NCBI RefSeq assembly: GCF_001746835.1
Contig: NZ_CP016094.1
Coordinates: 2,418,001 to 2,482,000 of the forward strand
Origin: Lacunisphaera limnophila
GTDB lineage: Bacteria; Verrucomicrobiota; Verrucomicrobiia; Opitutales; Opitutaceae
DNA length: 64,000 nucleotides
Reading direction: 5' to 3'
Shown: positions 43,735 through 59,230 of the stretch, in pieces
Numbering within the stretch: position 1 is the stretch's first letter
How the letters are laid out: each line of letters opens with the position of its first letter
Program-made: the position numbers and the translations under genes
Notes under the pieces: generated by a model
What the model saw: the letters and a program-made list of their open reading frames with translations, nothing else
Told to the model about the DNA's origin: nothing
The model's database searches: none

Positions 43735-44751
43735 ATGCATCCCCCAAGCCCCAACTCGAAGATTCTTGTCACCGGAGCCGACGGTTTTATCGGCTCTCAC
43801 CTTACGGAGGAACTGGTGCGCCAAGGGCGCAAAGTGAAGGCCTTCGTGCTCTACAACTCATTCAATTCCTGGGGTTGGTTGGATCGTTGCCCGAGCGAGA
43901 TCAGGAAAAACCTGGAGGTGTTTGCCGGTGACATCCGCGACCCGCATGGGGTCAAGGCGGCCATGGCGGGCTGTGATGCCGTGCTGCATCTGGCTGCGCT
44001 GATCGCCATCCCGTATTCCTACCATTCACCGCACACCTATGTGGACACCAACGTGAACGGCACGCTGAACGTGCTGCAGGCGGCGCGCGAGCTGGGCGTC
44101 AAGCGCTTGGTGCACACGTCGACCAGCGAGGTTTACGGCACCGCCCGGTTTGTCCCCATCACCGAGGAGCATCCGCTGCAGGGCCAGTCGCCGTATTCCG
44201 CATCCAAGATCGGGGCGGATCAGCTGGCCTTTTCCTACTATGCCTCCTTCGGGTTGCCCGTGATCACCGTGCGCCCCTTCAACACCTATGGCCCGCGGCA
44301 ATCGGCCCGCGCCGTGATCCCCACCATCATCACGCAGATTGCCCGGGGCAGCCGGGTGATCAAGCTGGGTGCCGTGTCGCCGACGCGGGACTTCAATTAT
44401 GTGCAGGACACGGTGCGCGGATTCATCGCGGCGCTGGATGCCAGCCAGGGCGTCGGCGAAGTGGTGAACATCGGGAGCAATTTCGAGGTTTCGATCGGCG
44501 AAACCGCGACGCTCATCGCCGAGGCCATGAACGCGCCGATAACCATTGAGACTGATGAGGTGCGCCTGCGGCCGGAAAACTCCGAGGTAAACCGCCTCTG
44601 GGCGGACAACGCCAAGGCGGCGAGGCTGCTCAACTGGAGCCCGCGTTATGGCGGACGCGATGGATTCAAGCGTGGGCTCGCGGAAACGGTCGCCTGGTTC
44701 ACCCAGGAAGACAACCTGCGGCAATACAAAGCGGATATCTACAACCTCTGA
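43735..44751 (+). CDS. legB: LegB-like nucleotide-sugar 4,6-dehydratase (SDR)
   Basis: This 338-aa extended SDR binds NAD through TGADGFIG (13-20) and has the catalytic TSTSEVYG (128-135) and YSASK (154-158). It resembles LegB-type dehydratases, which form the 4-keto-6-deoxy intermediate from GDP- or UDP-GlcNAc at the start of the legionaminic acid pathway. The context agrees: NeuB, NeuC, NeuA and a PtmE-like nucleotidyltransferase follow in the same direction. A dTDP- or GDP-hexose dehydratase of another pathway is the alternative, but no rml or gmd companion is present. First gene of the plus-strand cluster; the next gene begins 14 bases after its stop. Confidence 0.88.
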   Translation: MHPPSPNSKILVTGADGFIGSHLTEELVRQGRKVKAFVLYNSFNSWGWLDRCPSEIRKNLEVFAGDIRDPHGVKAAMAGCDAVLHLAALIAIPYSYHSPHTYVDTNVNGTLNVLQAARELGVKRLVHTSTSEVYGTARFVPITEEHPLQGQSPYSASKIGADQLAFSYYASFGLPVITVRPFNTYGPRQSARAVIPTIITQIARGSRVIKLGAVSPTRDFNYVQDTVRGFIAALDASQGVGEVVNIGSNFEVSIGETATLIAEAMNAPITIETDEVRLRPENSEVNRLWADNAKAARLLNWSPRYGGRDGFKRGLAETVAWFTQEDNLRQYKADIYNL

Positions 44752-44765
44752 ACCCTGTTTTCAGC

Positions 44766-45818
44766 ATGAACACTCCCAGCAGCGCCGAGTTCAAGATCGC
44801 GGGCCGGCCGATCGGCTACAATCATCCCCCGGTGGTGATCGCCGAGATCGGCATCAATCACGCGGGGTCGCTCGACCTGGCCATCACGATGGCGGATGCG
44901 GCCATCGATGCCGGGGCGGAAATAGTCAAACACCAGACCCATATCATCGAGGACGAAATGTCGGAAGAGGCGAAGTCGGTGATTCCGGGCAATGCGAGCA
45001 TTTCGATCTACGACATCATGCAGAGTTGCGCGCTGCCCGAGGCGGAGGAGTACCGGTTGATGCAGCACGTGCAGTCACGGAAGGCCATATTCATCAGCAC
45101 GCCCTTTTCCCGGGCGGCTGCGGTCCGGCTGGCCAAATTTGACGTGCCGGCCATCAAGGTCGGATCAGGGGAATGCAACAATTATCCCCTGATCCAGATG
45201 ATCGCCGGACTGGGCAAGCCGGTCATTCTCAGCACCGGCATGAACTCGATCGAGACCGTGCGCCCGTCGGTGGACATATTGCGGAAGGCCAAGGTGCCCT
45301 TCGCCCTGCTGCATTGCACCAATGTCTACCCGACGCCGCCGCACCTGGTGCGGCTCGGGGCCATGCAGACTTTGCAGGCCTCGTTTCCCGATGCGGTCGT
45401 CGGGTTGTCGGACCATACCACCGGCAACTACCCCTGCCTGGGTGCGGTGGCCCTCGGCGGAAGCATCCTGGAGCGCCATTTCACCGACCGCATGGACCGG
45501 CCGGGGCCGGACATTGTGTGCTCGATGGATCCGGGTGCGCTGCGTGAACTGATCGAGGGATCCCGCATCCTGTTTGAGGCACGTGGTGGGGACAAGGCGC
45601 CGGTGGCGGCGGAAGCCCCGACCATCGCCTTCGCGTTTGCGTCGGTCGTGGTGATCCGCGATATCGCGGCCGGGGAGACATTCTCCGAAGCCAACATCTG
45701 GCTCAAGCGACCCGGGGGCGGGGACTTTGGCGTCGGTGATTACCCCGGACTCATCGGCCGGACGGCCAAGCGGCCCGTGCGCGCGGGGGTCCAGTTGCGG
45801 CGGGATGATTTGGCCTAA
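44766..45818 (+). CDS. neuB: NeuB/LegI-family nonulosonic acid synthase
   Basis: This 350-aa protein condenses phosphoenolpyruvate with an N-acetyl-hexosamine-type six-carbon sugar to give a nine-carbon nonulosonic acid. The TIM-barrel NeuB domain (about 15-280) shows AEIGINHAGS, VKHQTHI, IKVGSGECNNYPLI, STGMN, LLHCTNVYPTP and GLSDHT. A C-terminal SAF/antifreeze-like domain (about 290-350; RDIAAGETF, GLIGRTAKRPVRAG) closes the active site, as in known NeuB. Whether it makes sialic, legionaminic or another acid cannot be told from the sequence alone; the neighbouring LegB and PtmE-like genes favour a legionaminic-type product. It is spaced 14 bases from legB and 21 from the next gene. Confidence 0.93.
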   Translation: MNTPSSAEFKIAGRPIGYNHPPVVIAEIGINHAGSLDLAITMADAAIDAGAEIVKHQTHIIEDEMSEEAKSVIPGNASISIYDIMQSCALPEAEEYRLMQHVQSRKAIFISTPFSRAAAVRLAKFDVPAIKVGSGECNNYPLIQMIAGLGKPVILSTGMNSIETVRPSVDILRKAKVPFALLHCTNVYPTPPHLVRLGAMQTLQASFPDAVVGLSDHTTGNYPCLGAVALGGSILERHFTDRMDRPGPDIVCSMDPGALRELIEGSRILFEARGGDKAPVAAEAPTIAFAFASVVVIRDIAAGETFSEANIWLKRPGGGDFGVGDYPGLIGRTAKRPVRAGVQLRRDDLA

Positions 45819-45839
45819 CCGGAAGCAGGGGCCCAACCC

Positions 45840-46676
45840 ATGAAGCATAGCGTAGTCGTGACCGGGGCTTCGGGATTTGTTGGGGGCGCCTTGGCGAGAG
45901 CCTTGCGGTCGGCCGGTATCGCGGTGGTGCCGGTGGCCCGCAGCCCCGGGGCCGGGTGGCGGCAGTTGGCGGATTATCGCGAGGCCCCGCCGGCCGATGT
46001 CTTGGTGCATCTGGCCGAGGACAATAATCGTGGCCGGGTTAACGCCGGCGGTGCGGCGGCCAGCGGCGCGGCGATCCGTACCATGGAGCAGTTGCTCGCC
46101 AAACCCTACCGGCGGGTGATCTATGCGTCGTCCGCGGTTTTGTACGGCGATGAGGAATCGCAACCGCGCGGCCGCGGGGATGCGGTGCAATTAGCCGACA
46201 CCTACGCCACGACCAAGTGGGAATGCGAGCGCCGGGTGTTGCAGGCCAAGGGTAATCTCGTGGTCCGGCTGGCCAACATCTACGGCCCGGCGATGAGCGC
46301 GAACAATGTCATCAGCACCATTTTGGGCCAGATACCGGGGAAGGGCCCCCTCTGCGTGTGGGATGCCGGTCCGGTCCGGGATTTTCTTTGGATCGACGAT
46401 GCGGTCACCGCCCTCTGTGCCGCCATCACGAGTGAGGTGGACGGCGTCCTCAACCTGGGCAGTGGCGTGGGCCATTCCATCGGTGAAGTCGCACGCATCG
46501 CGCTGGCCATCAGCGGCGAGGCGGATCGCCCGGTCCAGTCCACCCAGCCGGCGGGCCGGTCGTCCCGGCTGGTCCTGGACATCCAGGAAACCACGCGGGC
46601 GCTCGGATGGCGCCCGACTACGCACTTGAAGACGGGGGTGGAAAGACTCATGAACGGCCGCTTATCATCCGAATGA
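45840..46676 (+). CDS. SDR-family NAD(P)-dependent sugar-nucleotide reductase/epimerase
   Basis: This 278-aa protein has TGASGFVG (8-15), YASSAVLYG, YxxxK as YATTK (122-126), RLANIYGP and VRDFLWIDD, placing it with short extended SDRs such as RmlD and GalE-like reductases. All catalytic residues are present. It lies inside the nonulosonic-acid block, exactly where a LegC aminotransferase would be expected, and overlaps the next gene (neuC-like) by four bases. I infer that it reduces or epimerises the 4-keto sugar made by the LegB-like enzyme, giving a hydroxyl where legionaminic acid has an amino group. The substrate is unproven. Confidence 0.85.
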   Translation: MKHSVVVTGASGFVGGALARALRSAGIAVVPVARSPGAGWRQLADYREAPPADVLVHLAEDNNRGRVNAGGAAASGAAIRTMEQLLAKPYRRVIYASSAVLYGDEESQPRGRGDAVQLADTYATTKWECERRVLQAKGNLVVRLANIYGPAMSANNVISTILGQIPGKGPLCVWDAGPVRDFLWIDDAVTALCAAITSEVDGVLNLGSGVGHSIGEVARIALAISGEADRPVQSTQPAGRSSRLVLDIQETTRALGWRPTTHLKTGVERLMNGRLSSE

Positions 46677-47893
46677 AAAAACGAGTCATCGCCATCTTTA
46701 CCGGCAACCGGGCGGAATACGGCCTGCAATATCCGATCATCCGGGCGGTGGATAAGCATCCCGATATGGAGTACCGGCTGCTGGTATCCGGGGCCCATCT
46801 TGATCCGAACTTCGGCAGCACCCTGCAGGAGATCCACGCGGATGGGTTTCGGGTCGATGCCGAGATCAAGATCGCGATGGATGCCGGCTCCCTGTTTGCC
46901 ACGGCCCAGGCCATCGGTTCGGGGGTGCTGGCCATCAGCCAGGCCTTTGCCGAGATGAAGCCGGATCTGGCGGTCATCTATGCCGACCGGTTCGAGGGCC
47001 TGGCCGCGGTCATCGCCGCAAGCCAGATGAACATCCCGACCGCGCATGTGGAGGGCGGGGATCTCACCGAAGGCGGCGCGCTGGATGATTCCGTCAGGCA
47101 TGCCATGACCAAGCTGGCGCATCTTCATTTCACCACGAATCAGCAGGCGACCAACCGGATCCTGGCCATGGGGGAGGAGCCCTGGCGGGTGCACACCGTC
47201 GGCTTTCCGGCGATCGATCTGATTTCAGAGGGCCGGTATGCCAAACCGGACGAAGTGCGGGAGCGCCTGGGATTGGATCTGGCCCGGCCGGTGGTGCTGT
47301 TCACGCAGCACTCAGTCACGACCGAGTTTGATCAAGCCACGGCCCAGCTCATGCCGTCCTTGCAGGCGATCGAGGAACTGGCGGGCGAAGGGGTCCAGGT
47401 GGTGTTGACCTATCCGAACAACGATGCGGGCGGGCGGGCGATCATCCAGGCGCTTGATGCCTTCGGCGCCCGGAAGATCAAGGGCACGAGCGTGCACCGG
47501 TCACTCGGCCGGTCGCTGTATCACGGGGTGCTGGCCCTGGCCCGGGGGGCGGGCCTGCGGGTGGCCTGTGTGGGCAATTCCTCCTCGGGGCTCAAGGAAA
47601 CGCCGGCTTTTGGCTGTCCCACGGTGAATATCGGATCCCGGCAAGAGGGGCGTCTGCGCGGCCAGAACGTCATTGATGTCGCCTACCAGGCCGGGGCCAT
47701 CCGGGATGGAGTCCGGCGCTGTCTTTTCGACGAGGCCTTCCGCGAGGTCTGCCGCACGGCGCCGAATCCTTATTGGCTGGGGGACGCCGGGCCGAAGATT
47801 GCCGAGGTCCTGGCGACGGTGGCCTTGGATCAGAACCTGCTGCGCAAACGGATGACGTTGCGGGGCGAGGTGCGGGATGGCTGGTTCAGATGA
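46673..47893 (+). CDS. neuC: NeuC/LegG-type hydrolysing nucleotide-sugar 2-epimerase
   Basis: This 406-aa protein belongs to the WecB/NeuC family; it releases the nucleotide and inverts C2 to give a ManNAc-type sugar for NeuB. Visible motifs are FTGNRAEYGL (9-18), IYADRFEGL, AHVEGGDLTEGG, FTQHSVTTE, and NSSSGLKE. The GNRAEYG N-terminus is typical of NeuC/LegG rather than WecB (GTRPE). The start ATG 46673 overlaps the upstream stop (ATGA), and its own stop overlaps the next start in the same manner, so this block is tightly coupled. GDP-linked substrates are likely if the next gene is a true PtmE. Confidence 0.93.
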   Translation: MKKRVIAIFTGNRAEYGLQYPIIRAVDKHPDMEYRLLVSGAHLDPNFGSTLQEIHADGFRVDAEIKIAMDAGSLFATAQAIGSGVLAISQAFAEMKPDLAVIYADRFEGLAAVIAASQMNIPTAHVEGGDLTEGGALDDSVRHAMTKLAHLHFTTNQQATNRILAMGEEPWRVHTVGFPAIDLISEGRYAKPDEVRERLGLDLARPVVLFTQHSVTTEFDQATAQLMPSLQAIEELAGEGVQVVLTYPNNDAGGRAIIQALDAFGARKIKGTSVHRSLGRSLYHGVLALARGAGLRVACVGNSSSGLKETPAFGCPTVNIGSRQEGRLRGQNVIDVAYQAGAIRDGVRRCLFDEAFREVCRTAPNPYWLGDAGPKIAEVLATVALDQNLLRKRMTLRGEVRDGWFR

Positions 47894-48954
47894 GCGAAAC
47901 ACCCTTACTTCCCGAGGCCCTGTTGATCGAGGCGGTGCGCGCCATCGAGGTGAATCGCCGGCGGATGGCGGTCGTCGTGTCGGCAGACGGCAGGCTGCGT
48001 GGCACGCTGACCGACGGGGACATCCGGCGCCATTTGCTGGCGGGTGGAAGCTTGGATTCCCCGGTGGCGAAGGCGATGAATCCGAACCCCGTGGTGGCAG
48101 AAGACGGAGCGGGGGCCGGATACCTCAAAGACATCATGCGCCGAGGCAATATCCTGGCGGTCCCCTTGCTCGACAAAGAGGGAAGGTTTGTGCGCATGGT
48201 CCACCTGTTGGACCTGGAGGAAGGTGAGCCCCGGCAGGTCCCGATCGCGAATTTTGCCTTTGCCGTGATCATGGCGGGAGGGGAAGGCACCCGGTTGCGA
48301 CCGCTCACGGCTTCCATTCCCAAACCGATGGTGGAGATTGGCGGGGTTCCGCTCCTGGAGCGACAGATCGGCCGGCTCGCCCAAGCGGGACTCAAGCGCG
48401 TTTATCTGTCGGTCAATTATCTGAGTCACGTCATCGAGGACTATTTCAAAGACGGCCAGGGTTTCGGTCTCGAGGTGAGGTACCTGCGCGAAACCGTGAA
48501 AATGGGCACGGCCGGGGCGCTGACCCTCCTGCCGGAGGTGCCGAGCGGGCCGATCATCGTGATGAACGGGGACATCCTCACCACGTCCGATTTTGCCAGC
48601 CTGCACGCCTTCCATGTCGCCCATGGCGCGACCATCACGATTGCCGCGATCGACCACAAGGTGGACATACCCTATGGTGTCATCCGGGCCGACGGGCACG
48701 TGGTGCGGGGCTTGGTGGAGAAGCCATCGGAGCGCTTCCTCTGCAATGCGGGCATCTATGCCGTTTCCGCGGCGGCCCTGCGCCAGCTGGCGAGCGGCAA
48801 GCATGTCAACATGACGGACCTGATCGACGCCTGTCTCCGGGACGGACTGCCGGTCGCGGTGTTCCCGGTGCATGAGTACTGGAATGACATTGGCACGGTG
48901 GCGGACCTGCAGAATGCGCGGGCGCACTTTGCCAAGCTGGAGGTGGTCAAATGA
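47890..48954 (+). CDS. CBS-pair nucleotidyltransferase, PtmE/LegX-like
   Basis: This 354-aa protein has two CBS repeats at about 1-118 (GTLTDGDIRRHLL, PVAKAMNPNP, ILAVPLLDKEG) and a sugar-phosphate nucleotidyltransferase at about 122-350 (VIMAGGEGTRLRPLT, PKPMVEIGG, NGDILT, VEKP, EYWNDIGT). PtmE of Campylobacter jejuni has this layout and makes GDP-GlcN for legionaminic acid; that comparison suggests GDP-linked intermediates here. The start ATG 47890 overlaps the neuC-like stop. It is followed by a 129-bp spacer (48955-49083) in which I see no gene or clear signal. Confidence 0.88.
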   Translation: MSETPLLPEALLIEAVRAIEVNRRRMAVVVSADGRLRGTLTDGDIRRHLLAGGSLDSPVAKAMNPNPVVAEDGAGAGYLKDIMRRGNILAVPLLDKEGRFVRMVHLLDLEEGEPRQVPIANFAFAVIMAGGEGTRLRPLTASIPKPMVEIGGVPLLERQIGRLAQAGLKRVYLSVNYLSHVIEDYFKDGQGFGLEVRYLRETVKMGTAGALTLLPEVPSGPIIVMNGDILTTSDFASLHAFHVAHGATITIAAIDHKVDIPYGVIRADGHVVRGLVEKPSERFLCNAGIYAVSAAALRQLASGKHVNMTDLIDACLRDGLPVAVFPVHEYWNDIGTVADLQNARAHFAKLEVVK

Positions 48955-49083
48955 TGCCCGCCCCGGGTTATCCGTTGTTGCCACCGGCGGGCCCTTGCGT
49001 GTGCATGACGGGTTGCCTCCGGTCCGGCCGGGGCCCCACCATCCCGACTTTCCTGATTACTCCATCCAACCTCCGTTCCCTCC

Positions 49084-50313
49084 ATGACTAAAGCGTACTT
49101 TGGCCTCCCTGAGGAGGTGCTATTCTGCAAACGCTGCGTGATCTCAAACCAACGGCCGAGTTCCTCGGTCGAGTTCAAGCACCGCCCCGATGAGAAGAAG
49201 GCGACCATCGGATTCGGGGACGACGGGGTGTGCGACGCCTGTCGTTATCATGACGTGAAGGAAGCCGAGATTGACTGGGGCCAGCGGGAGCAAGCGCTGA
49301 TGAAGATGCTGGATCAGCACCGGCGGAGCGATGGGGGCTACGATGTGATCGTCCCGGGCAGCGGCGGAAAGGACAGCGCCTACACGTCGCATATCCTCAA
49401 ATACAAATATGGGATGAATCCGCTGACCGTGACCTGGTCACCGCACAAATACACCGAGATCGGCTGGGAGAATTTCGAAAGTTGGATCCATGTGGGCGGG
49501 CTCGACAACATCCTGTTCACCCCGAACGGCCGGTTGCACCGCTACCTGACGCAACAGGCGTTCCTGAACCTGCTGCACCCGTTCCAGCCTTTCATTGTCG
49601 GCCAGCGGATCATCGGTCCGCTCATGGCCGCCAAGTTCGGGGTGAAGCTGGTGATGTACGGCGAGAACCAGGCCGAGTACGGGAATGCCGTGGCGGAGAA
49701 CCGCAAGCCGACGATGGACCGCAAGTTCTTCTCGGTCGGCAATCCCGAGGACATGATCCTGGGCGGGCGGGTGGTCAAAGATATCGTCGCGGAGAAGCGC
49801 TTCACGTTGAATGATTTCGCGCCCTATATCGCGCCCGATGCGAGCTATCTCGAGGGGCGCGGCGTCGAGGTGCACTACCTGGGTTACTATCTGAAATGGG
49901 ACCCCCAGGAGTGCTACTATTATGCAGTCGAGAATACGGGATTCCAGGCGAATTCCGAACGCACGGAAGGCACCTACTCGAAATACAGCAGCATCGATGA
50001 TCAGATCGACATGTTCCATTACTTCACGACCCTGATAAAATTCGGGATCGGACGGGCCACCTACGATGCCGCGCAGGAGATTCGAAACCACAAGATCACG
50101 CGGGAGGAAGGCGTGAATCTCGTGAAAAAATACGACCAGGAGTTCCCGATGAAGTACTACAAGGAATTTCTCGCGTATCTCGACATCACGGAGGACCAAT
50201 TCTGGGCGGCCGTGGACAAATTCCGCTCGCCCCACCTCTGGGTCAAGGAGGCGGGCGAGTGGAAGTTGAAGCATGCGGTCTGGCACGAGGCTAGCTCCGG
50301 GCAACGGCCGTGA
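49084..50313 (+). CDS. wbuX: N-acetyl sugar amidotransferase (WbuX/PseA family)
   Basis: This 409-aa ATP-pyrophosphatase-fold protein carries the PP-loop SGGKDS (93-98) and two CxxC pairs (C15/C18 and C50/C53) likely to bind zinc. The family turns an N-acetyl group of a sugar into an acetamidino group, using ammonia made by a HisH-like glutaminase and channelled through a HisF-like partner; both follow at once (GTGA overlap with the next gene). Known examples are PseA (acetamidino-pseudaminic acid) and WbpG (Pseudomonas O5). Here it lies between nonulosonic acid genes and neuA, so the substrate is probably the nonulosonic acid or its precursor. The leader is pyrimidine-rich and has no Shine-Dalgarno. 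Confidence 0.93.
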   Translation: MTKAYFGLPEEVLFCKRCVISNQRPSSSVEFKHRPDEKKATIGFGDDGVCDACRYHDVKEAEIDWGQREQALMKMLDQHRRSDGGYDVIVPGSGGKDSAYTSHILKYKYGMNPLTVTWSPHKYTEIGWENFESWIHVGGLDNILFTPNGRLHRYLTQQAFLNLLHPFQPFIVGQRIIGPLMAAKFGVKLVMYGENQAEYGNAVAENRKPTMDRKFFSVGNPEDMILGGRVVKDIVAEKRFTLNDFAPYIAPDASYLEGRGVEVHYLGYYLKWDPQECYYYAVENTGFQANSERTEGTYSKYSSIDDQIDMFHYFTTLIKFGIGRATYDAAQEIRNHKITREEGVNLVKKYDQEFPMKYYKEFLAYLDITEDQFWAAVDKFRSPHLWVKEAGEWKLKHAVWHEASSGQRP

Positions 50314-51080
50314 GAAACCTCCGTTTAATCGCCCGGCTCGATATCAAGGGCCCCAACCTGATCAAGGGCATCCATCTGGAAGGGCTGCGGGTCATCGGGG
50401 TGCCCAACGTGTACGCCCTGAAATATTACGCCCAGGGAGTCGATGAGCTGATCTACATGGACTGCGTGGCCAGCCTCTATGGGCGCAATCACCTGGGGGA
50501 GATCGTGCGCGCGGCCGCCCAGGACATTTTTGTGCCGATGACGGTGGGTGGCGGGATCCGCTCGATCGCCGATGCGACGGAAATCCTGCGCTGCGGCGCG
50601 GACAAGGTGGCGATCAACACGGCGGCGGTGGCCAATCCGCAGTTGATCACCGACATCGCCCGTCGGTTTGGCAGCCAATGCATGGTGCTCTCCATCGAGG
50701 CGAAGCAGATCGGCCCGGACCGGTGGGAGGTGTACACCGCCAACGGCCGCGAGCGGACCGGCCTGGATGTCATTGAATGGGTCAAGCGCGGGGTGCGCAT
50801 GGGGGCGGGGGAGATCCTGCTGACTTCGATCGACCGGGAAGGTACCCGCAAGGGATTCGACACCGCGCTGGTCAAGGCGGTGACCTCCGAAATTAACGTG
50901 CCGGTGATCGCCAGCGGTGGCATGGGTAAGCCGGAAGACTTGGTGAAAGTCGCCCGCGAAGGGGACGTTGATGCGGTCGCGATGGCGGACATCCTGCATT
51001 ATAACCGTTCGGATCTGGTCAAAATCCGCGCCACGGCGCAGTCCGCCGGACTGGCTGTCCGACCCTATGAAATCGCCTGA
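50310..51080 (+). CDS. hisF: HisF-like acetamidino-modification protein (WbuZ type)
   Basis: This 256-aa (beta/alpha)8 barrel has HisF features: LDIKG with Asp11, GGGIRS (80-85) and GGMG. The second catalytic Asp of histidine-pathway HisF (Asp130) is Glu130 here (SIEAK), and the Asp11 surroundings (RLIARLDIKGPNLIKG) differ from true HisF. With wbuX before it and a HisH-like gene after it, it should accept ammonia from the glutaminase and pass it to the amidotransferase, rather than make imidazole glycerol phosphate. It starts with GTG inside the upstream stop codon (GTGA). No other his gene is near. Confidence 0.93.
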   Translation: MRNLRLIARLDIKGPNLIKGIHLEGLRVIGVPNVYALKYYAQGVDELIYMDCVASLYGRNHLGEIVRAAAQDIFVPMTVGGGIRSIADATEILRCGADKVAINTAAVANPQLITDIARRFGSQCMVLSIEAKQIGPDRWEVYTANGRERTGLDVIEWVKRGVRMGAGEILLTSIDREGTRKGFDTALVKAVTSEINVPVIASGGMGKPEDLVKVAREGDVDAVAMADILHYNRSDLVKIRATAQSAGLAVRPYEIA

Positions 51081-51714
51081 AGTCACGATTATCGATTACG
51101 GCGTCGGCAATCTGCTGAGTGTGCAGCGCGGCTTCGAGCATTGCGGGGCGACGACCCGCATAACCGCCGAGGCGAGTCTCATTCTCGCGGCCGACCGGGT
51201 GGTCCTGCCCGGAGTGGGAGCCTTTGGCGACGCGATGATGGCGCTGGAGCAGCGTGGGTTGGTGGCCGTGGTCAAGGAGGTGGTCGCGCGGGGTATCCCG
51301 CTGCTGGGCATCTGCCTCGGGATGCAGATGCTCTTGGATGAGAGCGAGGAGTTCGGCCTGAGCACGGGGTTGGGGGTGATTCCCGGGCGCGTGGTCCCCG
51401 TGCCGGACCGGACGGTGGCGGGCGCAGCGCAAAAGATCCCGCATATTGGCTGGAACTCGCTGGTCACCGCGCCGGGTGGGGGCGGGTGGGGCGGCACCGT
51501 GCTGCAGGACATACGCGCCGGGGAAGCGACTTATTTTGTACACTCCTTCATGGCCGTGCCGCGTGATCCCGCGCATCGCTTGGCCGACTGTCTCTACGGC
51601 GGGCACGCCCTGCCGGCGGTCATCCGGCGTGATCGGATCACCGGTTGCCAATTTCATCCGGAGAAAAGCGGGCCGGTGGGCTTGAGAATTCTGCGGAATT
51701 TCATCGCCCAATGA
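51067..51714 (+). CDS. hisH: HisH-like glutamine amidotransferase subunit (WbuY type)
   Basis: This 215-aa class I glutaminase has the complete triad: Cys83 in GICLGMQ, His197 and Glu199 in CQFHPEKSG. It supplies ammonia to the HisF-like and WbuX-like partners for acetamidino formation. The start MKSPEVTIIDYG (51067) overlaps the hisF-like gene by 14 bases, and its stop overlaps neuA by four, so all are probably read and translated together. The oxyanion-loop region (PGVGAFGDAM) is also conserved. A role in histidine synthesis is unlikely given the setting. Confidence 0.93.
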   Translation: MKSPEVTIIDYGVGNLLSVQRGFEHCGATTRITAEASLILAADRVVLPGVGAFGDAMMALEQRGLVAVVKEVVARGIPLLGICLGMQMLLDESEEFGLSTGLGVIPGRVVPVPDRTVAGAAQKIPHIGWNSLVTAPGGGGWGGTVLQDIRAGEATYFVHSFMAVPRDPAHRLADCLYGGHALPAVIRRDRITGCQFHPEKSGPVGLRILRNFIAQ

Positions 51715-52403
51715 GGATCCTGGCCTTGATTCCGGCGCGGGGGGGGTCGAAACGCCTGCCGGGAAAAAACCTGAAGCCCCTGGGCGGGAAGCCGATGATT
51801 GCCTGGTCGATTGACGCGGCCAAGGACATCGCCGAGGTCTGCGACATCTTAGTTTCCACCGATGATTCCGAAATTGCCGCGGTCAGCCGGCAGGCCGGCG
51901 CCATGGTGCCTTGGTTGCGGCCAGCGGAACTGGCAACGGACACGGCCACCTCGGTCGATGTGGCCCTGCACGCGCTGGACTGGTATGAGGCAAGTTGCGG
52001 GCCGGTGGGAGGATTGCTGCTGTTGCAGCCGACCTCGCCGTTCCGGACCGCGCGGACGATCCGCCAGGGCATCGAACTTTTCCGGCAGCGATCCGCGGAG
52101 CCGGTTTTGGCGGTGGCCAAGCCGCATCTGCACCCGCTCTGGGCGCTAAAAAGGGATGGTGATTATCTCCGGCGGTACTTGGCGGGTGACGGTCTGGAAA
52201 CCCGGTCGCAGGACCTGCCGGAAGCTTTCTTCCCGACCGGCAGTCTCTATCTCATCGCGCCGGCGGTGCTGCGTGCGACGCGATCCTTTGTTGGCGCGCG
52301 GGTGGTGCCCTTGCTGATCGAGGCCCCTCATGAGGCCCTGGATGTCGATACCGAATGGGACTTCAAGATCGCCCAAATGGTGGCCGAGGAACTGCCCAAA
52401 TGA
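51711..52403 (+). CDS. neuA: CMP-nonulosonic acid synthetase (NeuA/LegF family)
   Basis: This 230-aa protein activates a nonulosonic acid with CTP. The N-terminal nucleotide-binding motif IPARGGSKRLPGKN (8-21), LLLQPTSPFRT, and DVDTEWDF (a metal-binding DxD region) are all present. Its length equals that of stand-alone NeuA/LegF/PseF enzymes. It begins at ATG 51711 in the HisH stop codon and closes the nonulosonic acid/amidination block, so the amidinated sugar is probably the one activated. A KDO cytidylyltransferase (KdsB) is less likely because of the ARGGSKR(L)PGKN form and the neighbours. Confidence 0.93.
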   Translation: MRILALIPARGGSKRLPGKNLKPLGGKPMIAWSIDAAKDIAEVCDILVSTDDSEIAAVSRQAGAMVPWLRPAELATDTATSVDVALHALDWYEASCGPVGGLLLLQPTSPFRTARTIRQGIELFRQRSAEPVLAVAKPHLHPLWALKRDGDYLRRYLAGDGLETRSQDLPEAFFPTGSLYLIAPAVLRATRSFVGARVVPLLIEAPHEALDVDTEWDFKIAQMVAEELPK

Positions 52404-52520
52404 GGCAGGCGGTGCATGGTTTCCCCTGGGGCCACCCGCGGGGCTGGGCCTTGGCCCACCGCCCGATGGGACGGTTGGGAGGGCCCAAGCCCCATTAAGG
52501 TTGTGCAAAGGCTCCGGCAT
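52404..52520. other. Spacer with imperfect inverted repeat upstream of wzx
   Basis: GGGGCTGGGCC (52440-52450) and GGGCCCAAGCCCC (52481-52493) can pair with one bulge. A nested palindrome, TGGGCC-TT-GGCCCA, lies at 52445-52458. This may be an internal hairpin that lowers wzx expression, or relic repeat DNA. An in-frame ATG at 52416 would make this stretch coding, but its translation does not look like a Wzx N-terminus. Confidence 0.4.
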
Positions 52521-53804
52521 ATGATCGCGGGCAGCGGCTTGCTGAAACTGCTCAGCAGTGCGGGCCTTTATGGTATCGCCAACCTGGTGGGCGCACTCAC
52601 CCCCCTGATCGTGCTGCCCGTGCTCAGCCGTTCGCTGTCGGCCGGCGACCTGGGCCGCTTTGCGCTGTACCAGTCCGCGTTGGCCCTGGCCCTGCCGGGA
52701 ATTTCCATGGGGGTGCATGGCGCGGTGTCGCGCCAGTATCTCAATCGGGACACGATCGATTTCGCGCGTTATGTCAGCAGCCTGCTGGCCATTTCCCTCG
52801 CCGCCGGCACCGGCACGCTTGTGGTGCTCTGGATGATCGGGTTGTTCGCCCCGGGGGTGCTGGGCGGCAACGGGGTGGTTTTCCAGTATGCCGTGGTCTC
52901 CGCCATCGGCCTGTCGTTGCTGCAGGTGTTCCTGGCCATTGTGCAGATGAGGCAGAAGCATCTGCTTTACGCGGCGATCCAATGTTTGGTCACCGGCCTG
53001 TTGATCGCGGCGAGCATGGGTGCGGTGGCGGTCCGGCCCGACTGGCAATCCGTCCTGCGGGCGAACATGGCGGCCTACGGGGCCATCGGCCTGGTCGTGG
53101 CCGGCATCCTCTTCACCCAGAAGCTGGCGGCATGGCGGATTTCGAAAGAATACGCGGTGCACGCCTTGCGCTTCGGGGCGCCCCTCGTGCCGCATCTGCT
53201 GGCCGCGTCCGTCATCACCATGCTCGATCGCTTTTTCATCGCCCATTTCCACGGGGTTGAAGCGGTGGCGGCGTACGCCGTGGCCTATCAGGTGGCGGTG
53301 GCCTTGAATCTGGCTTGCTCTTCATTTGGCAATGCGTGGGCTCCGTGGCTGATGCACCAGCTACACGTCAGATCGGCCGGCACCGGTGCGAGGATCACCC
53401 GCTACCTGCTGGTCTATTTCGCGGGGGTCGTTGCCTTGGGCGGGGTGTTGTGGGCGGTCAGTCCGTGGATCATCGCCCTCGTGGGCGGGGATCGGTACAG
53501 CGCCGCGTATCACTGGATGCCGTGGCTCATCGCCGGCTTTGTCTTCAACGGGGTTTCCCGGGCCCTCGGCGTCATTCCCTTCTATCACGGACGCACGCTG
53601 GCCCTGGCGCTCGCGACGGTGGGTGGAGCCGGGACAAGCGTGGGCCTGAATGTGGTGCTGGTGCCCTCCCTGGGTGCGGCCGGCGCCGCGGTCGCCCAAT
53701 GCCTGGGTTTTCTCGTCACGGCGGTGCTGACGGCCCGCCTGGCCGTGAGCCTGGAAAGTTTGCCGTGGGTCGCGGTGATCAAGTCAACCTTCACCCGCCC
53801 CTAG
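52521..53804 (+). CDS. wzx: Wzx-type polysaccharide flippase (MATE/MOP superfamily)
   Basis: This 427-aa protein is predicted to have about 12 membrane helices, starting with GLLKLLSSAGLYGIANLVGA, which is the usual first helix of RfbX/Wzx proteins, followed by LPVLSRSLSAGDLG. It flips undecaprenyl-linked repeat units across the inner membrane. Possible starts are ATG 52416, GTG 52503 (TTAAGG just before it) and ATG 52521 (AAAGG nine bases upstream); the last fits family N-termini best and is used here. One base separates its stop from the wzy-like gene. Confidence 0.9.
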   Translation: MIAGSGLLKLLSSAGLYGIANLVGALTPLIVLPVLSRSLSAGDLGRFALYQSALALALPGISMGVHGAVSRQYLNRDTIDFARYVSSLLAISLAAGTGTLVVLWMIGLFAPGVLGGNGVVFQYAVVSAIGLSLLQVFLAIVQMRQKHLLYAAIQCLVTGLLIAASMGAVAVRPDWQSVLRANMAAYGAIGLVVAGILFTQKLAAWRISKEYAVHALRFGAPLVPHLLAASVITMLDRFFIAHFHGVEAVAAYAVAYQVAVALNLACSSFGNAWAPWLMHQLHVRSAGTGARITRYLLVYFAGVVALGGVLWAVSPWIIALVGGDRYSAAYHWMPWLIAGFVFNGVSRALGVIPFYHGRTLALALATVGGAGTSVGLNVVLVPSLGAAGAAVAQCLGFLVTAVLTARLAVSLESLPWVAVIKSTFTRP

Positions 53805-54963: not shown

Positions 54964-56401
54964 TCCCTCCAGTTTGGGGCACCTGGTTGCGCCGTCCGGA
55001 GCCCGGCGGTCGCTGGGGGGGCTCGTCATGGACCATTCGGCCGATCTGTTTCAAGGGGAGCTCCACAAGAAGGTTTGTGGTGTGATTGCCTCCGCCTGTG
55101 TGCCCGACCCCATGGAGCGGTGCATCTACGAGAACCTCCTGTTCTTGAAATCAACCGAGGCCCGGGGGGCGACTGCGGCGATCAGCCAACTGCTCGCCGG
55201 CGGCGGGGCAACGGAGAGGCTCGAGCTGACGGCGATTCTCCAGCCGGCCGTGCCTGCGGAATTGCACGCGGGCATCGGCTGGCTGCCCACCGTGCCGACC
55301 CGACTCGTCGATCCCGGCGTGGTCAGGACTTTCGCGGTGAAGGCACTGGTGCACTGGGTTTTCCGGTGCTTCCGGCGAAAGCTCAGGCCGGGAGCCATGC
55401 TGCGGGCCTGGGTGGAGGTGAGTTTGAAAATGTATGGCCAGGAAATGGATCGGTCGGCGCCGGATATTCGCGTCTACCCGTTTCCGATCAGTCTCATGCG
55501 GCAGGTGCGTTTTCTGGCCAGCCTCCGTGGGCGGCGACTAACCTGGTCCTTCGAGGGCGTGCCTTATCGGCTGGCTGACTTCATCCGGGCGCTGCGCGGC
55601 AGGCTCACGGACCGCGGCCTGGCGCAGGCGGAGGCCTTCGGCTACCTCGCGCACGCCGACGAACTGGTCCGCGCCGGCATCACGACACTCTATACCAGTG
55701 ATGAGTTTGAGGTGGGCGCGGTGGTCATGCATCAGCGACTGGGCGGGAGCGGGGTTCGCTCAGTGAACACCGCCCATGGCGTCGGCGGGTACTGTCCGCG
55801 CATTGCCTACACGGAATTCCGGGTAATCAGCCGGTCGCAGGCCGCCTTCTATCAAAGGGACAACCCGGCGATACGCTACACGCTCCGGGCCAATGCAAAT
55901 CGGGCCCTCGTTCGCTTGCCGCCGGTGCCGGCCGGCCAGACGGGCCGGTCGGTCGTCTATATCCATCAGAATTGGGAGGAGCTCGGCTTCACCTTTGAAG
56001 CCGGCATCCAGCAGCGCATCTGTTCCGCATTGACGGAGGTCGCAAAAATCCCGGGGATTCGAATCTCCCTGAAGGTGCACCCGAATTCATCCAAGAAAAC
56101 CTTGGCCGCCCTGCGGCGAGACTGGCCGGGGGCAATCCTGCGTGATTTTGCGGACCTGCCGGCGATCAAGCCGATTTTCATCATCATGAACTCGACCACT
56201 TACTTTGAGCTGGGTGAAGCGGGGCCCGTGTTGGCTTGCAAGGACCACACCCTTGCGCCGGAACTCTATTTCGGCGAAGGGCTCGACGCATTCACCCTTG
56301 ATGCACTGCGCTCCCGGATAGCCGAACTGATGGATGACGAGGCCTGGGCCGGCGCCCTTGCCCGGCAAAAATTGCAACGCGCCGCGGAGCTGTGCCTATG
56401 A
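54956..56401 (+). CDS. Probable GT-B-type transferase of unknown specificity
   Basis: This 481-aa soluble protein has no membrane helix. The C-terminal half has VVYIHQNWEELGF, ISLKVHPNSSKKTL and FIIMNSTTYFELGE, which recall the KxHP and downstream Ser/Thr-rich motifs of capsule GT-B enzymes (CDP-glycerol and sialic-acid/KDO-type transferases). The N-terminal half is not recognisable. Coupled to wzy (eight-base overlap) and to the acetyltransferase (ATGA), and close to neuA, it is a candidate for the transferase that uses the CMP-nonulosonic acid. The start ATG 54956 is chosen for this coupling; ATG 55028 is possible. Confidence 0.75.
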   Translation: MGDPSSLGHLVAPSGARRSLGGLVMDHSADLFQGELHKKVCGVIASACVPDPMERCIYENLLFLKSTEARGATAAISQLLAGGGATERLELTAILQPAVPAELHAGIGWLPTVPTRLVDPGVVRTFAVKALVHWVFRCFRRKLRPGAMLRAWVEVSLKMYGQEMDRSAPDIRVYPFPISLMRQVRFLASLRGRRLTWSFEGVPYRLADFIRALRGRLTDRGLAQAEAFGYLAHADELVRAGITTLYTSDEFEVGAVVMHQRLGGSGVRSVNTAHGVGGYCPRIAYTEFRVISRSQAAFYQRDNPAIRYTLRANANRALVRLPPVPAGQTGRSVVYIHQNWEELGFTFEAGIQQRICSALTEVAKIPGIRISLKVHPNSSKKTLAALRRDWPGAILRDFADLPAIKPIFIIMNSTTYFELGEAGPVLACKDHTLAPELYFGEGLDAFTLDALRSRIAELMDDEAWAGALARQKLQRAAELCL

Positions 56402-56964
56402 AAACCCTGCTCATCCGCCTCTACACTTGGTTTCAGCTGACCTTCTGCCACCGTTTTGCGGCCGTCGGCAAACAGCCCCGCATCGGGCCGCGCGTCTATG
56501 TGGCGCCGGACTCGGTCAGGCTGGGCGATTATTGCTTCGTGGGTCATGGCGGCTACCTGGCCGGGGCGATTGAAATCGGCCACTTCGTGATGCTGGCCGG
56601 ACAGGTCGCGATTGTTGGGGGCGATCACCGGATTGATCGACCCACCGTGCCGATGATTTTCTCCGGACGCGAGGCGCCCCGGCGCACCATCATCGAGGAT
56701 GATGTGTGGATCGGCCACGGGGCCACGGTGATGAGCGGGATCCGGATCGGGGAGGGATCTGTCATCGCCGCGGGCGCGGTGGTGACCAAGGATGTGGCCC
56801 CGTACTCGATCATGGCAGGGGTGCCGGCCCGGTTCATCCGGGCCCGTTTTGATCCGGCCGCGCAGACACAACATGCGGATCGTTTGCGCCAGTATCGGCT
56901 TGATGGGCTCCGCCCCGCTGCATGGCAGGGGGCGCCGACGCTGAAAAACCTACTGAAGGAGTAA
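56398..56964 (+). CDS. Hexapeptide-repeat acyltransferase (WbbJ-like O-acetyltransferase)
   Basis: This 188-aa left-handed beta-helix protein has repeating [LIV]GxxxxI/V hexapeptides from about 33 to 160, GGDHRID (with the likely catalytic His) and the closing IIEDDVWIGHGATV and AGVPARFIR segments. It resembles sugar O-acetyltransferases of the WbbJ/NodL/maltose acetyltransferase type. It is not the LegH/PglD type, which has an N-terminal Rossmann-like domain, so it probably does not replace LegH. It starts in the stop codon of the previous gene. Next comes an 87-bp spacer (56965-57051) in front of the fnl genes, where a new promoter could lie. Confidence 0.88.
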   Translation: MKTLLIRLYTWFQLTFCHRFAAVGKQPRIGPRVYVAPDSVRLGDYCFVGHGGYLAGAIEIGHFVMLAGQVAIVGGDHRIDRPTVPMIFSGREAPRRTIIEDDVWIGHGATVMSGIRIGEGSVIAAGAVVTKDVAPYSIMAGVPARFIRARFDPAAQTQHADRLRQYRLDGLRPAAWQGAPTLKNLLKE

Positions 56965-57051: not shown

Positions 57052-58080
57052 ATGTTTGAAAAACATGTACTCCTGATCACCGGCGGGACCGGATCCTTCG
57101 GCAATGCGGTTTTGCGCCGGTTCATCGAGACCAACGTGGCTGAAATCCGGGTGTTTTCCCGCGATGAGAAAAAACAGGACGACATGCGGCACCAGTACGG
57201 GTCGAAAAAGGTTAAGTTTTATATCGGTGATGTCCGCGAGCGAACGAGCCTGGACGATGCGATGGAAGGCGTGGACTACCTCTTTCACGCCGCTGCCCTG
57301 AAACAGGTGCCGTCGTGCGAGTTTTATCCGATGGAGGCCGTGCGCACCAACGTCAACGGGACCGACAACGTACTGCGTGCCGCGGTGGACCATGGGGTAA
57401 AAAAGGTCGTGGTCCTGAGCACCGACAAGGCCGCGTATCCGATCAACGCGATGGGCATCTCCAAGGCGATGATGGAAAAGGTGACCGCGGCCGCCTCCCG
57501 GGTGGCCAGCGCGCGGGGCGCCACCATCTGCCTGACCAGGTACGGCAACGTCATGGCCTCGCGCGGGTCCGTGATCCCGTTGTTTCTCGACCAGATTGCC
57601 CGGGGGCAACCGATGTCGATCACCGACCCGGAGATGACACGCTTCATGATGACCCTGGACGATGCCGTCGACCTGGTCATCCATGCGTTCACCCAGGCGC
57701 GTCCCGGCGATCTCTTCGTGCAGAAGGCGCCGGCGGCGACCATCGGCACGCTGGCGCAGGCGCTGAAGGAGCTGCTGGGCGCGACCAACCCCATCAGGGT
57801 GATCGGCACCCGGCATGGCGAGAAGCTGTACGAAACGCTGCTGACCCGGGAGGAACGCGCCAACGCGGAGGACCAAGGCGGTTATTTCCGCGTCGCCTCG
57901 GACAATCGGGATCTCAACTACAACCTCTATTTCTCGGAGGGCGACCGGCGGGTGCAGGCGCAGGAAGACTATCATTCGCACAACGCCGAACGTCTCGATG
58001 TCGCCGGCATGAAGGCCCTGCTGCTCAAGCTGCCCGAGGTGCGCGCGGCCATCGCGGCGCGCCAGGCCGGTGGCGCCTGA
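57052..58080 (+). CDS. fnlA: UDP-GlcNAc 4,6-dehydratase/5-epimerase, FnlA/CapE type
   Basis: This 342-aa SDR performs the first step of UDP-L-FucNAc synthesis. It has TGGTGSFG (10-17), FHAAALKQVPSCE (79-91), STDKAAYP (123-130) and the unusual catalytic segment NAMGISKAMMEK, in which the SDR tyrosine is replaced by Met134 ahead of Lys138. This MxxxK pattern is characteristic of CapE/FnlA/WbjB. The order fnlA-fnlB-fnlC that follows confirms the pathway. PseB also has this fold, but no other Pse-specific enzyme is present. Confidence 0.93.
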   Translation: MFEKHVLLITGGTGSFGNAVLRRFIETNVAEIRVFSRDEKKQDDMRHQYGSKKVKFYIGDVRERTSLDDAMEGVDYLFHAAALKQVPSCEFYPMEAVRTNVNGTDNVLRAAVDHGVKKVVVLSTDKAAYPINAMGISKAMMEKVTAAASRVASARGATICLTRYGNVMASRGSVIPLFLDQIARGQPMSITDPEMTRFMMTLDDAVDLVIHAFTQARPGDLFVQKAPAATIGTLAQALKELLGATNPIRVIGTRHGEKLYETLLTREERANAEDQGGYFRVASDNRDLNYNLYFSEGDRRVQAQEDYHSHNAERLDVAGMKALLLKLPEVRAAIAARQAGGA

Positions 58081-58096
58081 AGCGAAGGCATTCCGC

Positions 58097-59230
58097 GTGA
58101 AAACCGTCCTCGTCACCGGTGCGCAGGGATTCCTGGGCAAACATCTGGTTGAGGCCTTGCGGCGCAATCCCGACACGGAGGTGCTTGAGTTTCACCGGGG
58201 GATGGAGCTGGCCGCGCTGGCGGACGTGCTGCCGCGGGTCTCGGTCATCCATCATCTGGCGGGCGTGAACCGCCCGGCGGATCCGGGGGATTTCGCCACC
58301 GGCAACCACGGTCTGACGGCGGAGCTGTGTCGCCTGCTCACCAGCCTGAAGCACCGCCCGCTCATTGTTTACGCTTCCACCATCCAGGCCTTGCTGGACA
58401 ACCCCTATGGGCGCAGCAAGCGGCAGGCGGAGGTGGAACTGGAGCGCTGGGCGGCCGACGAGGGCGGCCGGGCGGTTGTTTTTCGTCTGCCGAACGTCTT
58501 TGGCAAATGGTGCCGGCCGAACTACAATTCCGCGGTGGCCACCTTCTGCCACAACATCGCGCGGGATCTGCCGATCACCATCAGCGACCGGGCCCGTGAG
58601 CTCGAACTGGTGTATGTGGACGACGTGGTGGCGGCTTTCCTCGGGGCCCAGAGCCAGGCCATCGCACCCGGGCAGCATGCCGCCGGCTCGGTCCCGCGCA
58701 CTTTCCGGGTCACCCTCGGCCGCATCGCGGATGCGCTGCAGGCCTTCCGCGCCATGCGCAGCACGCTGGTGGTACCCCGCATGGATGACGAATTTGACCG
58801 CCGCCTGTACGCGACCTATCTCAGTTACTTGGAGCAGGACGATTTTGCCTACGGCTTGCTGCCGCGCAGCGATCAGCGCGGCACGCTGGCTGAATTCGTC
58901 AAACAAGGCGGATTCGGGCAGATATTCGTCTCCCGCACCTTGCCCGGGGTCACCCGCGGCAACCACTACCACCACACGAAAACCGAGAAGTTTCTCGTCC
59001 TGGAAGGGGACGCCATCGTGCGCTTCCGGTCGCTGCTGGGAGGCGGCGTGATCGAGTATCCGGTCCATGGCCGGGACCTGCGGGTGGTGGACATACCCCC
59101 GGGGTACACCCATTCGATCGAGAATGTCGGCCGGACCGAACTGATCACCCTTTTCTGGGCCAGCGAGGTGTTTGATCCGGCCGCGCCCGACACCATTGCC
59201 TGCAACGTCCTGACCCCCTCCTCCCCATGA
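58097..59230 (+). CDS. fnlB: CapF/FnlB bifunctional 4-reductase with C-terminal cupin epimerase
   Basis: This 377-aa two-domain enzyme of UDP-L-FucNAc synthesis has an SDR domain (1-250) with TGAQGFLG (7-14), YGRSK (104-108) and [17 protein letters not shown], and a cupin (about 265-375) with [16 protein letters not shown] (metal-binding histidines) and [13 protein letters not shown]. In CapF the cupin epimerises C3 and the SDR reduces C4. GTG 58097 is taken as the start because the nucleotide-binding strand begins there; an upstream GTG at 58070 would overlap fnlA. It overlaps fnlC by four bases. Confidence 0.93.

Follow-up and report, generated by a model that had tools for sequence, protein, structure and literature searches.

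A LegB operon of Lacunisphaera limnophila with a putative 4-keto reductase in place of LegC: a probable route to 9-deoxy-neuraminic acid

Which nonulosonic acid is specified by an operon that joins the LegB dehydratase of the legionaminic acid pathway to a synthase of the sialic acid type, and that has neither the aminotransferase LegC nor the acetyltransferase LegH? The question is raised by a 64,000-nucleotide stretch of the Lacunisphaera limnophila genome (contig NZ_CP016094.1, positions 2,418,001 to 2,482,000 of the forward strand), here called the window; the genome is a single contig of 4,199,284 bases, 99.99% complete. At 43735-52403 of the window, nine genes lie in one direction in the order LegB-NeuB-SDR-NeuC-PtmE-WbuX-HisF-HisH-NeuA, all of them open (Table 1), where SDR is an extended short-chain dehydrogenase/reductase. 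They are spaced by -14 to +21 bases, except for 129 bases ahead of WbuX; the gene overlaps make 46673 more likely than 46607 as the NeuC start, and likewise favour 51067 for HisH. The G+C content of 0.63, against 0.68 for the window, would fit later acquisition. As argued below, the operon probably combines parts of the legionaminic and sialic acid routes into one that leads to 9-deoxy-neuraminic acid.

The original prediction, drawn from the letters and reading frames of this stretch, listed LegB, NeuB, an SDR with an intact YxxxK motif (YATTK, residues 122-126), NeuC/LegG, PtmE and NeuA, with no LegC or LegH in the operon, and family scores and motifs confirm that set. LegB, NeuC, WbuX and HisH exceed curated cut-offs, and NeuB, HisF and NeuA, though short of single-equivalog thresholds, clearly belong to their families. 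The operon LegB is the sole LegB match in the genome at E <= 1e-60. The prediction had named a legC/legH pair encoded elsewhere as evidence against itself; genome-wide searches with the PF01041, LegC, PseC and NeuD families found no such pair. PF01041 has three matches in the genome, two DegT-family proteins and one aspartate-aminotransferase-like protein; the match L003 was rejected as a LegC candidate, being aspartate-aminotransferase-like. Neither DegT-family protein reaches the LegC cut-off (199.9 and 160.5 bits; cut-off 420) or that of PseC (246.4 and 214.6; cut-off 423.5), and the best PDB matches of the stronger one are scyllo-inositol transaminase and QdtB, with WbpE lower. A repeat search of the genome for LegC with TIGR04181 gave 197.5 bits at best (cut-off 420); this search is able to detect LegC, since of the 16 genomes having a LegB match at E <= 1e-60 it gives an over-cut-off score in 8. 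The best NeuD-type LegH score in the genome is 65.1 bits (cut-off 160.8), GNAT-type acetyltransferases not having been searched genome-wide. An ordinary legionaminic acid route, with aminotransferase and acetyltransferase supplied in trans by genes at other loci, could draw on the two DegT-family proteins, but their scores and the resemblances of the stronger one make this very improbable, as do the type of NeuB and the genomes of several related clusters described below.

The operon NeuB and NeuC have separate affinities. For comparison, genome contigs were scanned with a NeuB alignment of three rows, and of 553 relatives the 80 with the best matches were taken and combined with other loci (L numbers); the resulting counts describe NeuB relatives, not bacteria at large, and several loci are contigs of metagenome-assembled genomes (MAGs) that end early. 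The window NeuB scores 498.3 bits with 1xuu, the SiaC N-acetylneuraminate synthase of N. meningitidis (PMC7371886), versus 129.8 with pseudaminic acid synthase, and is 52-76% identical to 71 Neu rows versus 35-38% to 6 Leg rows; a NeuB that is not of Leg type argues against the in-trans legionaminic route. In a NeuB tree of 89 rows, all nine SDR-cluster proteins, the window's included, fall within an 80-row Neu side with a support of 100 by the Shimodaira-Hasegawa-like approximate likelihood ratio test (SH-aLRT), the 9 rows of the other side being 6 Leg rows with L010, L019 and L020. The best PDB match of the window NeuC is the GDP/UDP-diacetylbacillosamine hydrolysing 2-epimerase 5xvs (236.8 bits), and the second is the bifunctional UDP-GlcNAc 2-epimerase/ManNAc kinase 4zht (163.7 bits), where GlcNAc and ManNAc are N-acetylglucosamine and N-acetylmannosamine. 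In a NeuC tree of 85 rows, the same nine clusters stand in a 17-row LegG-type side with 7 Leg rows and L010 (SH-aLRT 100), apart from the 68 Neu-type NeuC. The trees were quick, with SH-aLRT as their only support, and the program flagged some long branches. Both are without L005 (no NeuB within its 3.4 kb) and without L106 (which overlaps L038), L111 and L112; neither the NeuB tree nor the residue counts include the L024 NeuB, whose reading frame was not picked up.

Judged by tree position, the operon is a hybrid, with a NeuB of the N-acetylneuraminic acid (Neu5Ac) synthase clade and a NeuC of the legionaminic (LegG) clade. NeuB active-site residues have been argued to track the pathway (PMC7371886). 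If substrates can be read from clades, the joint occurrence of a synthase that expects a C4 hydroxyl and a hydrolase of a 6-deoxy GDP-sugar lineage would point to a 6-deoxy, 4-hydroxy intermediate, 6-deoxy-ManNAc.

The SDR keeps company with LegB and a Neu-type NeuB. Co-occurrence was tabulated for 103 stretches, 83 of them with a Neu-type NeuB (the type being set by the higher score to the window NeuB or to that of L105), with identity thresholds of at least 45% for LegB, 30% over 80% of the query for SDRs and 33% for LegC. An SDR of one of two kinds, A (the window's) or C, is present in 8/8 Neu-type NeuB loci with LegB and in 0/75 without LegB; the LegB-less L026 holds only a 144-residue SDR piece (32%). 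The A-type loci are L025 (Polynucleobacter), L032 (Propionivibrio MAG), L067 (Proteobacteria MAG) and L038 (Bdellovibrionota MAG); the C-type loci are L057, L074 and L086 (Algoriphagus) and L060 (Ignavibacteriales MAG). A genome-contig scan with the window SDR by itself found no relative. Class-level searches with SDRs gave one other genome of 369 for the class of L025 (E <= 1e-45) and one of 345 for that of L057 (E <= 1e-35), and the two loci so reached, L111 and L112, lie outside the sample yet have LegB, a Neu-type NeuB (75% and 59%), NeuC and PtmE, with no LegC in the cluster. Among the 288 sampled genomes of the phylum to which the window belongs, only the window genome had an A-type SDR (1/288 at E <= 1e-35). 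With so few genomes matching in these class and phylum searches, the system is rare and scattered across distant bacteria. The PtmE-like protein of the window is 67-68% identical to those of L025, L032 and L111.

LegC occurs in one of the eight loci with LegB and Neu-type NeuB, L038. The L038/L106 contig bears a second set on the other strand, with a Leg-type NeuB (498.2 bits), NeuC (407.7) and an over-cut-off NeuD (199.9), so that this LegC is explicable by a legionaminic branch using the same LegB. The reductive (SDR) and legionaminic-type sets flank the single LegB and LegC and are separated by genes for a class III aminotransferase and a PtmA-like protein; in this Bdellovibrionota genome, one LegB would feed both branches. 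By comparison, LegC is present in 7/10 Leg-type NeuB loci with LegB (the other three being L010, L019 and L020), and a DegT protein at least 33% identical to LegC is present in 3/75 LegB-less Neu-type loci (L036, L039 and L046). Among genomes of the A-type loci, that of L032 has no LegC match at E <= 1e-60, and the best scores in those of L025 and L067 are 205.4 and 229.0 bits, which further disfavours an in-trans supply.

What the SDR does was approached through its residues and fold. Four other aligned A-type SDRs are 36-46% identical to that of the window, and the glycine motif G9-F13, R34, S97/S98, D120, Y122 and K126 are invariant in all five; Arg34 we take to be a mark of NADPH use. In 4,6-dehydratases the Glu after Thr-Ser is catalytic; 9/9 aligned A- and C-type SDRs lack this Glu, which LegB has in its TSE motif, and a second dehydratase is therefore unlikely. 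With LegB expected to leave a 4-keto group, and with no aminotransferase of LegC type to act on it, the SDR would by elimination act as the 4-keto reductase. The original prediction had put the SDR in place of LegC and LegH, giving a 9-deoxy, 7-hydroxy acid, and that proposal has gained strong comparative support from the trees, the 8/8 against 0/75 count and the out-of-sample L111 and L112, though the chemistry stays a prediction from genes.

Several findings weigh against it. The predicted SDR model (predicted local distance difference test score 87.1) fits UDP-glucose 4-epimerases (4ZRM, Z 30.4) as well as 2PK3, a GDP-4-keto-6-deoxy-D-mannose reductase of RMD type (Z 30.3, root mean square deviation 2.6 over 273), so that the fold does not tell reductase from 4-epimerase. 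The SDR queries included the proteins of L025, L038, L057 and L060, which match themselves, so four of the eight LegB loci supplied their own query; L032, L067, L074 and L086 matched at 40-61%. In the window, L025, L032 and L067, NeuB has the same PGNA loop as ordinary Neu5Ac synthases, and no residue of these proteins indicates a 6-deoxy preference. Finally, below-cut-off LegC-like genes lie elsewhere in three C-type genomes (G292, 399.8 bits; G293, 402.8; G294, 382.3 and 377.3) and in the genomes of L111 (G598, 333.9) and L112 (G972, 396.5); such genes favour an in-trans supply, and these five genomes are weaker evidence for the reductive route because LegC matches of 387-389 bits adjoin LegB in G162 and G250. 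Three of the four genes in G292, G293 and G294 lie about 1-2 kb from an FnlA-like dehydratase (L107, L108 and L109), and NeuB or NeuC was found in 0/4 of the 15-kb stretches around them. This LegC comparison leaves out the genome of L074.

Another reading separates the operon into two products: NeuC and NeuB would make Neu5Ac from UDP-GlcNAc, and PtmE, LegB and the SDR would make an unrelated GDP-6-deoxy-N-acetylhexosamine (HexNAc) for direct incorporation into a polysaccharide. Nucleotide sugars of the 4-keto-6-deoxy kind are commonly reduced to give free-standing residues, and the window NeuB is near a true Neu5Ac synthase with its active-site loop kept. We nonetheless consider this reading improbable, as the NeuC type tracks LegB rather than the NeuB type (17 tree rows with LegB, 68 without), and the SDR gene sits between NeuB and NeuC in 6/6 A-type clusters.

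In the hybrid route that we prefer, the steps would run as follows. PtmE would make a GDP-GlcNAc-type sugar nucleotide, which LegB would dehydrate to GDP-4-keto-6-deoxy-GlcNAc; the SDR, with NAD(P)H, would reduce the 4-keto group, replacing the amination by LegC and the acetylation by LegH. The LegG-type NeuC would then hydrolyse the nucleotide sugar and invert C2 to give free 6-deoxy-ManNAc, to which the Neu-type NeuB would add phosphoenolpyruvate. The predicted acid is 9-deoxy-Neu5Ac, that is, 5-acetamido-3,5,9-trideoxy-D-glycero-D-galacto-non-2-ulosonic acid, or its 7-epimer. WbuX, HisF and HisH would convert the 5-acetamido to a 5-acetamidino group, and NeuA would activate the acid with CMP for a surface polysaccharide, exported perhaps by the neighbouring Wzx. 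Observed are the genes themselves, genome-wide scores for LegC and NeuD that stay below cut-off, a NeuB and a NeuC of different ancestry, and an SDR that occurs together with LegB and a Neu-type NeuB; every chemical step, the C7 configuration and the amidation target are inferred from them.

The NeuB active-site loop (residues 74-82 of the window NeuB) bears on the C7 configuration. Asn at residue 76 is present in 71/71 LegB-less rows (counts that leave out L010, L019 and L020), and the loop reads P-x-HTKESI(Y/F) in L038, L057, L060, L074 and L086, so that among SDR clusters HTKES is confined to L038 and the four C-type clusters. A NeuB residue marking all SDR clusters was sought in the alignment and none was found. 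With PGNA in some and HTKES in others, there are two kinds of SDR cluster by NeuB loop, and their products may be different isomers. For the window, an SDR giving an axial 4-OH, and from it 7-epi-9-deoxy-neuraminic acid, seems unlikely: the altered C-type loop would suit such a product, but the loop of the window NeuB is still that of ManNAc-using enzymes, and the 4-OH of ManNAc is equatorial.

The amidation trio would probably act on N5 of 9-deoxy-neuraminic acid. The operon WbuX scores 521.7 bits with 8wex, an N-acetyl sugar amidotransferase of Legionella pneumophila (PMC10607449), a species for which the cited text describes N-methylated N5-acetimidoyl nonulosonic acid forms in the lipopolysaccharide (PMC9912281). 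The trio lies within the operon, between PtmE and NeuA, and is kept in L025, L032, L067 and L111, stretches with no FnlA match; a separate HisF that passes the cut-off (346.8 bits), encoded at 1.39 Mb, leaves the operon HisF free for it. A reading in which the 9-deoxy acid is made but the trio instead amidates L-FucNAc (N-acetyl-L-fucosamine) to L-FucNAm is rather unlikely. The FnlA-FnlB-FnlC-like genes of the same locus offer this alternative target. FucNAm is the acetimidoyl sugar of the E. coli O118, O145 and O151 O-antigens. Acetimidoyl groups occur in these antigens (PMC9912281). The likeness of WbuX to the enzyme of L. pneumophila tells for the nonulosonic acid. The view that the trio acts on that acid, part of the original prediction, is likely to hold, and is short of certain because the FnlABC-like genes share the locus. 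The stretches of L038, the C-type clusters and L112 showed no WbuX, a further point of difficulty, and amidation would be an addition to the route, not its core.

WbuX also occurs in 12/75 LegB-less Neu-type clusters (L022, L026, L027, L029, L030, L033-L036, L059, L064 and L092), with HisF and HisH matches in 11 of the 12 (not L022); the WbuX of L102, in two pieces, was left out of the count. These clusters suggest 5-acetamidino-neuraminic acid in diverse bacteria. L022, on a plasmid of Alistipes indistinctus, is a NeuA-NeuB-NeuC-WbuX cluster with the closest plasmid NeuB (59%).

Wzx lies directly downstream of the operon; a Wzy_C protein is also found downstream, and beside these two a protein of the window is a candidate glycosyltransferase (Table 1). 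At 39090-40502, on the opposite strand, an ABC transporter ATPase with a Wzt_C domain may belong to a second export system beside Wzx.

Table 1. Operon genes and their downstream neighbours, in window coordinates (scores in bits; cut-offs in brackets)
Feature	Position	Strand	Evidence
LegB-type NAD-dependent 4,6-dehydratase, 338 aa	43735..44751	+	TIGR04180 522.6 (475); YSASK, STSEV motifs
NeuB, Neu (sialic) type nonulosonic acid synthase, 350 aa	44766..45818	+	PF03102/SAF; TIGR03569 358.1 (399.65); loop PGNASISIY
Extended SDR, proposed GDP-4-keto-6-deoxy-HexNAc 4-reductase, 278 aa	45840..46676	+	PF01370; GASGFVG 9-15; YATTK 122-126
NeuC/LegG-type hydrolysing 2-epimerase	46673..47893	+	TIGR03568 369.0 (235.9)
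PtmE-like nucleotidyltransferase (CBS + NTP_transferase), proposed GlcN(Ac)-1-P guanylyltransferase	47890..48954	+	PF00571, PF00483
WbuX N-acetyl sugar amidotransferase	49084..50313	+	TIGR03573 361.8 (203.2); SGGKDS PP-loop, two CxxC
HisF paralogue of amidation trio	50310..51080	+	TIGR00735 262.9 (294.55); TIGR03572 278.0 (299.7)
HisH-type glutaminase	51067..51714	+	TIGR01855 197.7 (105.4); GICLG motif
NeuA-type CMP-nonulosonate cytidylyltransferase	51711..52403	+	PF02348 CTP_transf_3; PseF 165.0 (205.7)
Wzx-type flippase	52416..53804	+	PF01943
Candidate glycosyltransferase beside Wzx/Wzy, 516 aa	54851-56401		No Pfam or NCBIfam match
Hexapeptide acetyltransferase, possible O-acetylase	56392..56964	+	PF00132; NeuD_NnaD 66.5 (160.8), not LegH by score
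FnlA-FnlB-FnlC-like (UDP-L-FucNAc type) genes	57052..60354	+	NCBIfam FnlA 539.0 (730), WbcJ 401.2 (500), WecB 232.9 (210.15)

We note some peculiar loci among the relatives: (i) the nearest plasmid SDR matches, about 30% and from Rhizobium and Neorhizobium (L019 and L020), were rejected as the same system, belonging to a different cluster type with a Leg-type NeuB and without LegC; L019 passes the 30% SDR threshold though not so counted. Their LegB, nucleotidyltransferase, extended SDR and Leg-type NeuB, with no LegC in the stretch, are possibly another variant, and both also encode a protein with a cysteine motif that by eye is radical-SAM-like. (ii) In L010 (G117) the order is LegB-NeuB-NeuC-NeuA-PtmE; its 20-kb stretch has no LegC and no SDR of A or C type, and a 374-bit LegC-like gene lies elsewhere in the genome. 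(iii) L007, L009 and L011 are lone LegB genes with no nonulosonic matches in the stretches taken. (iv) A second, distant NeuB-like gene follows the cluster in L032 (17586-18701, 27% to that of the window) and L067 (18456-19514, 21%), each then followed by a gene for a protein of 343-349 amino acids.

Comparison with known systems places the operon between two of them. The legionaminic pathway of L105 (LegB, LegC, LegH, LegG, LegI, LegF and PtmE, as annotated on a plasmid of Rhizobium sp. WL3) has in common with it LegB (79% identity), PtmE, a LegG-type NeuC, WbuX/HisF/HisH and a CMP-transferase; unlike L105, the operon is without LegC, a NeuD-type LegH, Gfo/Idh and a classical SDR, having one extended SDR instead, and its NeuB is of another clade. 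With the Neu5Ac pathway (NeuC, NeuB and NeuA) it shares a NeuB very close to SiaC 1xuu, but it adds PtmE, LegB and the SDR, and its NeuC stands outside the Neu-type clade. Relative to the acetamidino trio represented by 8wex, the operon WbuX has the PP-loop and CxxC motifs, and WbuX and HisH are over cut-off whereas the HisF-like protein is below both of its cut-offs; the nonulosonic acid is the predicted substrate here.

The combination of a 9-deoxy acid with an amidine, put forward as new in the original prediction, is not new as chemistry, because fusaminic acid of Fusobacterium nucleatum ATCC 25586 is a 5-acetimidoylamino-3,5,9-trideoxy nonulosonic acid with a 7-OH and a tentative L-glycero-L-gluco configuration (PMC13014188); pseudaminic acid differs from it at C4 and in lacking the C7 hydroxyl. 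As the operon route starts from LegB, its product is expected to be a D-glycero isomer, unlike the tentative L-glycero fusaminic acid. According to the relevant passage of PMC4045943, the neu locus of F. nucleatum ssp. nucleatum has genes for a GNAT acetyltransferase (FN1683), NeuB (FN1684), a dTDP-4-dehydrorhamnose-reductase-like protein (FN1685) and NeuB/NeuA (FN1686), with no obvious neuC, and was read as a sialic acid locus; a reductase-like gene is thus common to it and the operon, while LegB does not appear in that passage. The reductase-like gene may be an independent hint that a 4-keto reductase accompanies 7-hydroxy acids, although the GNAT gene points the other way. In the literature examined, mainly open-access, we found no assignment of a LegB-plus-reductase route to a nonulosonic acid and no assigned pathway for 9-deoxy, 7-hydroxy acids such as fusaminic acid, and we did not meet 9-deoxy-neuraminic acid (D-glycero-D-galacto) as a natural product. 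New here would be the gene-level route and, probably, a different stereoisomer.

Gene content serves to predict the sialic-acid-like sugars of bacteria, and this operon would be called legionaminic acid from its LegB or Neu5Ac from its NeuB; both calls are probably wrong. The wider proposal is of a reductive nonulosonic branch found across several phyla, in which a dedicated SDR, a LegG-type hydrolase and a Neu-type synthase would lead to D-glycero-D-galacto 9-deoxy-neuraminic acid, here amidinated at N5; taken whole, we regard it as evenly balanced. If true, the SDR together with the NeuC and NeuB clades would serve as an easily read genomic marker of 9-deoxy acids, and would provide a testable model for the origin of 9-deoxy, 7-hydroxy acids such as fusaminic acid.

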